From a virus, in the IMG/VR virus record IMGVR_UViG_3300042987_000307, positions 1 through 24,498 of that record: 24,498 nucleotides of DNA; one strand, written 5' to 3'. Numbering within the stretch: the first letter of the stretch is position 1; each line of letters opens with the position of its first letter. Under the pieces are notes generated by a model. That model was not told the origin of the DNA. It searched no databases and saw only the letters and a list, made by a program, of their open reading frames with translations. Shown here in pieces: positions 4,792 to 22,913 of the stretch. Both the position numbers and the translations under genes were made by a program.

Positions 4792-5913
4792 TTAGTCTGC
4801 GGATTCGGTGACAAGCCTGCACTCGAACAGGTGCATCAGCGTTGAGATCGGCACGTATGTTTCTTGGTCTTTGACCAGTTTGATGTGGTATTGGCCGACA
4901 TCGCATTGGGCGGTTTTCAAGGCGCGTACCTTGACTTTACGACCGCCTGCATCCAGCCAGTCGCCCTGTTTCACGGTTCCTCCGGGTGGGAAGACACGAA
5001 TGAGTTCTTTGACGCAGTTATCCCACGTGAACTGGAGGGTTGCCTCGAACCGTTGTTGTCGTTCCCACAGAGGCGGTCGTCCTTTGGTGTATGCGTCCCG
5101 CATCGCGTCCAACAGTTGATCGTTGTCGGGGACACACCAGTTGCCGACTTCTAGGAAGTATTGCATGGCGGCTGGCCCCCATTCCCAATCCAGCGGATAG
5201 TCGAACAGGTGGGAGAACCAGAGGTGGCCGGTGTGGGCGGGGGCGATAACCCGGTTGCCGAGCGCAAGGTTTTGGAGGGGGATCATGCCGAACCCTTCGC
5301 CGCGGGTGGCTGAGATGAAACAGTCGGCGGTGGCATAAAAGTCGCGTTCCTGCTCCACCGTCATCCGTTCCTTGACAACGATGATGTTCTCCCCGAACTC
5401 GTACAACTTGGGGTCGTCCAGCAGATCGGGGGTACATTTGATGAGCAGTTCCGAATCAGGAAGATTCAACTGTTTGAACGCATCAATGATCTGTTGGATG
5501 CCTTTGCGTTTCCAGCCGGAGCCACCCGTGATGAACCGGAATCGGTCGTTCGCTGGTGTATCAACGGGATGCCACCAGTCATGATCGATCCCGAGTGGTA
5601 TCACTTTGATATCGTCGTGGAATCGGGAGAACAGTTCCCGGTTCTGTTCGCATGGGACGATCACCGTGTCAAACATTCTGAGCGTACGGGTATACCGTTC
5701 TGGCACTAGGTCGGTTTCCCACATGGTGAGACAAGCGGTGCGTTGACCGTCATACCAGCCTTTCACCATGTCCGGTGGGACAGCATAGATAGACGCTTCG
5801 GACAGTTCGTCAAACGTGACGTACTTCGTGAGCGCGTCCCGCATCGAAGTCACCATACGCCCATAACCGACATGGGGGATATTGAATACCCCGTACAGAT
5901 TGTAGGTTTTCAC
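4792..5913 (-). CDS. GT4-type (GT-B fold) glycosyltransferase with C-terminal extension
   Basis: A 373-residue protein expected to transfer a sugar from a nucleotide-sugar donor. Visible GT4 features are the N-terminal glycine-rich GYGRM (16-20), the basic GSGWKRKG loop (131-138) of the donor-binding site and the signature RGEGFGMIPLQNLALGN (204-220). In that signature the second Glu of the usual E-x7-E pair is Gln (position 214). After the normal GT end, residues ~308-373 form an extra small beta-rich domain (KQGDWLDAGGRKVKVRALK...) that is not part of standard GT4 enzymes. The GTG start overlaps the preceding stop (GTGA). Sitting among tail genes, it may glycosylate a virion protein or alter the host surface; the substrate is unknown. 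Confidence 0.82.
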   Translation of the reverse strand: MKTYNLYGVFNIPHVGYGRMVTSMRDALTKYVTFDELSEASIYAVPPDMVKGWYDGQRTACLTMWETDLVPERYTRTLRMFDTVIVPCEQNRELFSRFHDDIKVIPLGIDHDWWHPVDTPANDRFRFITGGSGWKRKGIQQIIDAFKQLNLPDSELLIKCTPDLLDDPKLYEFGENIIVVKERMTVEQERDFYATADCFISATRGEGFGMIPLQNLALGNRVIAPAHTGHLWFSHLFDYPLDWEWGPAAMQYFLEVGNWCVPDNDQLLDAMRDAYTKGRPPLWERQQRFEATLQFTWDNCVKELIRVFPPGGTVKQGDWLDAGGRKVKVRALKTAQCDVGQYHIKLVKDQETYVPISTLMHLFECRLVTESAD

Positions 5914-22007: not shown

Positions 22008-22035
22008 GAAAGGCCGCCCCAAAGGGCGACCTTTC
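22008..22035 (-). terminator. Terminator-like hairpin in the terminase leader
   Basis: A 12-bp stem (22008-22019 with 22024-22035) with a 4-nt loop. In leftward RNA it is fully paired with one G-U; in rightward RNA that pair is A-C. It is followed by CUUUC and then UGCUUUA, a modest U-rich run. It lies between the leftward promoter and the terminase start, so it would act as an attenuator of late transcription or shield the mRNA 5' end. A smaller AAACC/GGTTT stem lies just upstream (around 22055-22070). Confidence 0.6.
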
Positions 22036-22154: not shown

Positions 22155-22913
22155 ATGCGCGTCGAAGCCGAAGAATACTTCGCCATCATCCCAGAATGGG
22201 TGCTATACGGCGACATCACCGCATCAGCCGTCAGGGTCTACGCAGTACTTAACCGGTACGCGAACAGCGACACCGGTAAATGCCACCCCTCTCGAAAAAG
22301 CATCGCCGCTAAAGCCCGGATCGGACTATCCACAGTTGACCGGGCAATAGACGAACTTGTTGCCTTCGGAGCAGTCACCGTCCGCCACCAGAAATCCGAG
22401 ACAGGCGACCACACCAGCAACGAATACACTCTCAAAATGAATAGAGGTCTATCCACAATGAATAGACCGTCCCCCCAAAATGAACAGACGGGTCTATTCA
22501 AAAGTGATAACCAAACCATAGCCATTCTTAACCAGAGCCAAGAATCAGAATCTTCATCATCTAACGATGACGGATTCGATGAGTTCTGGCAGATGTACCC
22601 CCGTAAAGTCGGCAAAGACGGAGCACGCACCGCCTTCAAAAGAGCACGAAAAAAAACCAGCCTCGAAACCATCCTCGCCGGACTCCACCTCTACAACCTC
22701 ACGCGCCCCAAAGAAACCCACTACATCGCCCACCCCACCACATGGCTCAATCAAGGACGCTGGGCCGACGAACCAGAAAACTTGCAGCCTACAAATAACC
22801 CCGACTCAGACCCCCAACCCATCTGGCAGCCCTGCGGCAACTGCTGGAACGGCTGGATCGAACAACCCGACAACACCCTCGCCCCCTGCCCCTGCCGAAC
22901 AAACTTCATGTAA
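22155..22913 (+). CDS. Replication initiation protein (lambda O / DnaT-like)
   Basis: A 252-residue protein. Residues ~21-92 are a winged-helix DNA-binding domain (HPSRKSIAAKARIGLSTVDR at 44-63, then FGAVTV and EYTL). A linker (93-140) of repeated MNR words and Ser-rich sequence follows. The C-terminal part has FWQMYPRKVGK (144-154) and HPTTWLNQGRW (193-203), typical of phage replication proteins that help load the host helicase, and ends with four cysteines (C227, C230, C245, C247) that may bind zinc. The ATG has AGGAGG 5-6 nt upstream. It is the first gene of the rightward block. The DNA for the linker contains iteron-like repeats, as in lambda O. Confidence 0.82.
   Translation: MRVEAEEYFAIIPEWVLYGDITASAVRVYAVLNRYANSDTGKCHPSRKSIAAKARIGLSTVDRAIDELVAFGAVTVRHQKSETGDHTSNEYTLKMNRGLSTMNRPSPQNEQTGLFKSDNQTIAILNQSQESESSSSNDDGFDEFWQMYPRKVGKDGARTAFKRARKKTSLETILAGLHLYNLTRPKETHYIAHPTTWLNQGRWADEPENLQPTNNPDSDPQPIWQPCGNCWNGWIEQPDNTLAPCPCRTNFM
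22434..22504. repeat. Iteron-like repeats, candidate replication origin
   Basis: Direct repeats of consensus A(A/C)AATGAA(T/C)AGA start at 22434, 22455 and 22477, that is 21 and 22 bp apart, two helical turns. An inverted copy (GGTCTATTCA) lies at 22491-22500, and a partial one (GGTCTATCC) at 22446-22454. AT-rich sequence follows. The repeats lie inside the linker-coding part of the replication gene. Confidence 0.55.

Follow-up and report, generated by a model that had tools for sequence, protein, structure and literature searches.

The window analysed here, a 24,498-nt (24.5-kb) stretch of viral DNA taken as a whole, contains a replication initiator gene within which the repeats described below are embedded (Table 1). 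The encoded protein matches the Pfam family PF13730 (HTH_36) over residues 21-72 (E = 2.6e-9, above threshold), and its best PHROG match, also above threshold, is PHROG 270, 'replication initiation protein' (E = 1.5e-43). A Pfam scan up to E = 1 gave no match to a RepA_N domain (PF06970). The AlphaFold model places a confident winged helix at approximately residues 14-93 and a helical C-terminal domain, of moderate confidence, at residues 141-199; the residues joining them (98-136) fall below a pLDDT of 50 and are predicted to be disordered. Because the model was built from a 16-row alignment and has a mean pLDDT of 66.6, we use the fold search as supporting evidence: its top Foldseek match is 5kbj ('Structure of Rep-DNA complex'), with the initiator entry 4pt7 and the DNA-binding N-terminal domain 4pql among the further high matches, all weak (E 0.003-0.01). 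By sequence the initiator has no credible relative of solved structure, and a protein-based search for relatives in bacterial genome contigs returned nothing. The gene is directly followed by a DNA methyltransferase gene (PF01555, 22942-23916), and methyltransferase genes also adjoin the initiator in several actinophages and a Pontimonas phage. Upstream of the initiator gene there is a short GC-rich inverted repeat, GAAAGGCCGCCC / GGGCGACCTTTC (22008-22035), which lies where the terminase ORF begins (5' end) on the minus strand.

Table 1. Positions in the 24.5-kb window of the initiator gene, of its domain-coding parts and of the elements of the putative origin.
Feature	Position	Strand	Remarks
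Replication initiator gene	22155..22913	+	252 aa; PF13730 match, PHROG 270 match, AlphaFold model
Winged-helix DNA-binding domain, coding DNA	22194..22433	+	residues 14-93; pLDDT 78-96 in blocks over residues 11-90
Iteron copy 1, TGAATAGAG	22438..22446	+	core-word search
Low-confidence linker, coding DNA	22446..22562	+	residues 98-136; pLDDT <50; contains most of the proposed origin
Iteron copy 2, inverted, GTCTATCCA	22447..22455	-	one mismatch; imperfect palindrome with copy 1
Iteron copy 3, TGAATAGAC	22459..22467	+	core-word search
Iteron copy 4, TGAACAGAC	22481..22489	+	codon phase differs from copies 1 and 3
Iteron copy 5, inverted, GTCTATTCA	22492..22500	-	exact; imperfect palindrome with copy 4
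Weak stretch, proposed DNA unwinding element (DUE)	22495..22554		duplex stability; GC 0.38-0.40
E2 copy 1, AACCATAGCCA	22514..22524	+	read T-I-A-I
E2 copy 2, AACCAGAGCCA	22530..22540	+	16 nt after copy 1; other frame, read N-Q-S-Q
C-terminal domain, coding DNA	22575..22751	+	residues 141-199; in relatives swapped independently of winged helix and iterons

Five copies of the core word TGAATAGAC, three direct and two inverted, lie within 22438-22500, and elsewhere in the 24.5 kb only one 9-mer comes within one mismatch of it. The cluster is the top-scoring 90-nt stretch of the window, that is, its densest repeat cluster. The repeats exceed both chance and the demands of the protein: five copies in 90 nt were reached in none of 2000 mononucleotide shuffles and in none of 2000 synonymous draws that preserve the protein. 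An earlier note on this DNA had proposed an origin at 22434-22504 from three direct repeats spaced 21 and 22 bp and a single inverted copy, placed in the DNA for the linker between the winged helix and the C-terminal domain. The direct repeats were located at 22432-22446, 22453-22467 and 22475-22489 with exactly those start-to-start distances, and the structure model agrees with the placement; an inverted orientation is indeed present, in two copies (22447-22455 and 22492-22500) rather than one. The note had further argued from a recurring MNR in the linker that DNA rather than protein is selected. Selection on DNA is upheld below, for which codon phase is the better argument, but MNR itself is weaker evidence than stated: it occurs only twice in the protein, and the third direct DNA copy, AATGAACAGAC, is read in another frame as NEQT.

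The DNA following the repeats is AT-richer, again as noted earlier. GC content drops to 0.38-0.40 at 22475-22574, and the stretch 22495-22554 belongs to the four weakest non-overlapping 60-nt segments of the 24.5 kb (top 0.25%). The iterons are thus adjoined by AT-rich, easily melted DNA, as in an in-gene origin of the lambda type. A minimum in cumulative GC skew, which had been expected near 22.45 kb, is not seen there, and the skew lends the proposal no support; it declines to the end of the 24.5-kb linear fragment, to which no host has been assigned. Words resembling a DnaA box (CTATCCACA, one mismatch to TTATNCACA) occur at 22326-22334 and at 22449-22457, the latter inside the iteron array; the whole window holds 10 such words, and in the initiator family they are not enriched, their frequency being equal to that in codon shuffles.

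The interval 22434-22504 stops short of a further element just downstream, a tandem repeat of AAC(Y)AGA(R)CCA that we call E2. It lies within the weak stretch, so that tandem repeats are found inside the DUE as in iteron-plasmid origins of the RK2 kind. Defining a tandem E2 as a pair of AACYAGARCCA words with at most 4 summed mismatches and a spacing of 13-18, we find it in 35 of 43 non-redundant homologues collected by protein similarity, a set free of selection for E2, though part of it is where the consensus first came to notice. It is present whatever iterons the gene carries, and on the reverse strand in 0 of 43; shuffled sequences contain it at 0.5% (codon shuffles) and 11% (synonymous shuffles). 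Among the homologues, L001, L003, L025, L036, L043 and L293 have no clear tandem E2. Of the 35 genes, 18 have a spacing of 14, 15 have 16, one has 15 and one has 17; we abandoned a rule that excluded 15, because spacings of 13, 15, 17 or 18 do occur in noncoding copies and in some coding ones. In all but one of the 35 genes the two copies stand in different codon phases, and the encoded peptides are unrelated (TIAI..NQSQ, TRTTELEP, EPEPFLTRAI, KEPEPINQ). The variable base 4 follows the reading frame: it is T in 36 of 41 phase-2 copies, 41 of 53 phase-1 copies and 0 of 12 phase-0 copies, where it would create a TAG stop, in a tally partly biased by the inclusion of scan-selected genes, whose first copy had to carry T to match the scan. 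It is strongly supported, from sequence comparison, that a second tandem element, independent of the iterons, follows them in the unstable stretch. In the literature we found no mention of AACTAGAACCA in an origin context, and the six papers containing the string all look unrelated by title.

In the homologues the corresponding position of the linker also carries repeats, but their sequences are quite unlike those of the window. Direct and inverted repeats exceeded synonymous shuffles at p<0.05 in 44 of 56 non-redundant relatives, 28 of which were found through E2 and not through the protein; the test draws on bases upstream of E2 alone. As a source, the viral contigs are redundant and partly short. 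As a control, the winged-helix stretch of the same genes showed an excess in 1 of 56. An excess of inverted repeats by itself was not significant in these relatives. A simple 8-mer copy score applied to all homologues proved too blunt, leaving many genes non-significant, and was dropped for the direct/inverted score. Codon phase makes the same point within single genes: in the relative L009, one 18-bp word, GTAGCCGCACAGATGCGG, is read as VAAQMR and as SRTDAE in the same linker. Iteron copies in different codon phases argue that the DNA, not the peptide, is selected. When relatives are aligned, as the earlier note had suggested, the linker protein drifts beyond recognition and the DNA repeats stay in place, and no homologue was seen that keeps the linker protein without DNA repeats. 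Selection on the linker DNA as DNA, with an iteron array matched to the protein's own winged helix, is strongly supported by the sequences.

That match can be seen by comparing different parts of the genes. Across the 56 genes, iteron similarity follows winged-helix identity when C-terminal identity is held fixed (partial Mantel 0.44, p=0.002, the minimum attainable with 499 permutations), and the reverse partial correlation with C-terminal identity is 0.08 (p=0.058). Individual pairs illustrate the pattern: the window's gene shares 69% of its winged helix but only 16% of its C-terminus with L008, and their iterons are alike (local alignment score 53), whereas with L001 it shares 49% of the winged helix and 84% of the C-terminus, and the iterons are unrelated (score 6, against a background of 10). 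As read from these comparisons, the initiator gene is a mosaic in which winged helix and iterons are inherited as a module and the C-terminal domain can be swapped. If the repeats are read by the winged helix, iterons should track it as they do here, and from this covariation we infer that the repeats are initiator sites. Recognition-helix residues as the sole predictor did poorly (partial 0.12 once overall winged-helix identity was fixed), which is partly due to a crude, pattern-based extraction of the helix.

E2 can also be searched as DNA alone. Scanning 2.9 million viral contigs for AACTAGARCCA N(2-8) AACNAGARCCA returned 115 stretches, where we roughly estimate that one or fewer would be expected by chance. 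On inspection, matches with a gap of 3 are winged-helix initiator genes with E2 right after the repeat linker; gap 4 is mixed, and gap 7, mostly low-complexity genes and repeats, was ignored. A second scan with a pattern like the window's variant gave initiator genes at gaps 3 and 5 and a mixed set at gap 4. At gap 6 of the first scan E2 is noncoding, and in the cases examined it follows an HTH_36 gene of 118-139 residues and an array of short repeats. These relatives comprise Bacillus phages (OM654379 and others), the Bacillus plasmids CP035392, CP021679 and MF996510, and Virgibacillus; a Halobacillus genome and L381 have the same noncoding layout with other gaps. Noncoding E2 after short HTH_36 genes was noted in L336 (2600-2760), L381 (4200-4310), L442, L443 and L448-L450, and in the Bacillus-group phages and plasmids iteron-like repeats such as CCATACACGG lie directly upstream of it. 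A scan of genomes gave six stretches with E2. One in-gene copy lies in a Microbacteriaceae MAG (L446); three matches (Granulicella, a SAR86 MAG and a gammaproteobacterial MAG) have no adjoining winged-helix gene and look like simple repeats.

The layout has well-characterized precedents. The lambda origin has four 18-bp iterons in gene O, all of them inverted repeats to which one O dimer each binds, followed by approximately 38-40 bp of AT-rich DNA that opens (PMC3349717, PMC7466680, PMC5043065). As in the window, an iteron array inside the initiator gene precedes an AT-rich stretch, but the iteron sequence is another one and the AT-rich repeat is not AACYAGARCCA. In lambda gene O (L441, 522-544) that stretch contains ACAAAAGA twice, 15 nt apart, and this pair is a possible analogue of E2. 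SPP1 oriL, in gene 38, combines direct repeats with an AT-rich DUE and is bound by the initiator with nanomolar affinity (PMC6316719); judged by its description it shares the architecture of direct repeats and a weak stretch within the initiator gene, but SPP1 has a second origin, oriR. In the pSK41/pPR9 plasmids the Rep boxes lie inside rep and the central linker is dispensable as protein; in pPR9 Rep, an N-terminus of pfam13730 that brings its own origin is fused to a C-terminus of the pSK41 type, and the mini-replicon replicates (PMC5703833). Here too winged helix and origin are exchanged as a unit against a constant C-terminus, with the window's Pfam family in pPR9, whereas pSK41 differs in being a plasmid with antisense RNA control and in its RepA_N domain, which was not detected in the window's initiator. 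For E2 the nearest likeness is to the DUE 13-mers of RK2 oriV and E. coli oriC, which are likewise short, repeated in tandem and placed in weak DNA next to the sites of the initiator; the RK2 repeats are bound by the initiator as one single strand (PMC4081077). Such DUE repeats are described as differing between replicons (PMC10797057), unlike E2, which is common to replicons with unrelated iterons.

Taken together, the linker-coding part of the initiator gene very probably contains a theta-type phage replication origin. The lambda-like in-gene origin proposed in the earlier note is supported by the repeats of the relatives, their covariation with the winged helix and the architectures of lambda O, SPP1 and pSK41. 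Initiators would probably bind the five TGAATAGAC sites, neighbouring inverted copies being occupied by dimers, and this binding would bend or wrap the DNA; the resulting strain on the weak stretch could then open it. E2, most likely as a single strand, would be where the initiator, or a conserved partner such as a helicase loader, a helicase or a primase, docks or is loaded in a sequence-specific manner, and the exchangeable C-terminal domain would probably recruit a host- or phage-specific part of the replisome. E2 would thus be a shared unwinding or loading element. In our view, its constancy while winged helix and iterons change points to a conserved partner, or to a part of the initiation machinery that does not vary, as its reader.

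The same observations can be arranged differently. The linker repeats might be an operator through which the protein regulates its own gene or operon, with the origin elsewhere. Winged-helix proteins often autoregulate, some HTH_36 proteins carry an annotation as transcriptional regulator, and binding sites within a gene are by themselves no proof of an origin. An operator is nevertheless a very unlikely account of sites that lie approximately 280-345 bp inside the coding sequence and are followed by an unstable stretch and E2, in a layout that recurs in dozens of replication initiators and whose known precedents are origins. Conservation of E2 for the peptide it encodes (TRTTELEP, INQSQE), for example as a helicase or clamp contact, is less probable still. 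Its rate in synonymous shuffles does indicate that the protein sequence carries part of the signal, but in 34 of the 35 genes the frame changes from one copy to the other, so that the peptides are unrelated, and the occurrence of E2 in noncoding DNA removes this explanation.

We think it improbable, though less so than an operator, that E2 is a recombination linker, a conserved word at which the winged-helix/iteron module meets the swapped C-terminal module. E2 does sit exactly at the module boundary, and L212, L248 and L249 are alike after it and different before it. Against this, E2 is not one stretch of homology but two or three tandem copies at restricted spacing, and it is found in noncoding DNA of Bacillus replicons in which the short HTH_36 gene lacks a swappable C-terminal domain. 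A more serious contender, to which we give roughly one chance in three in plain terms, is a variant compatible with our preferred explanation: E2 would be a primosome or primase start, or a conserved host-factor site, rather than a strand read by the initiator. A conserved partner fits a constant E2 better than does a winged helix that changes completely along with its iterons, and E2 spans a Microbacteriaceae replicon and Bacillus-group replicons. On the other hand DnaA boxes are not enriched, and none of the recognition words of primase or DnaA known to us matches E2.

The broader proposition is that the word AAC(Y)AGA(R)CCA, repeated two or three times in tandem, acts as a portable signal of general use for origin opening or helicase loading in phages and plasmids with HTH_36 initiators, across two or more bacterial phyla. 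Its reader would be a conserved partner or a conserved portion of the initiator, whereas iterons and winged helix would diverge and be exchanged as a pair. We regard this proposition as evenly poised between right and wrong. DnaA-trios, which serve chromosomal origins, offer an analogue. To our knowledge only a handful of phages and plasmids have had their in-gene origins studied well, and the present results indicate that a large uncharacterised family has this arrangement in general. They also allow recognition domains to be paired with their iterons straight from sequence, which would be useful for predicting the compatibility of phages and plasmids, and E2 would provide an origin marker that is independent of initiator specificity and searchable as DNA. 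A shared E2, set against the replicon-specific DUE repeats of the published systems (PMC10797057), poses a testable question: what reads E2?

Two minor observations concern the size of the initiators. L017-L038 include a clade of very short initiators (172-184 aa, gene at about 4992-5540), in which the winged helix, the repeat linker and E2 are followed by a CxxC...CxxC zinc-knuckle-like tail that replaces the usual C-terminal domain. In L034 (3145-3492) the initiator ORF stops early in the linker, at 116 aa, compared with L017, owing to a frameshift or a sequencing error.
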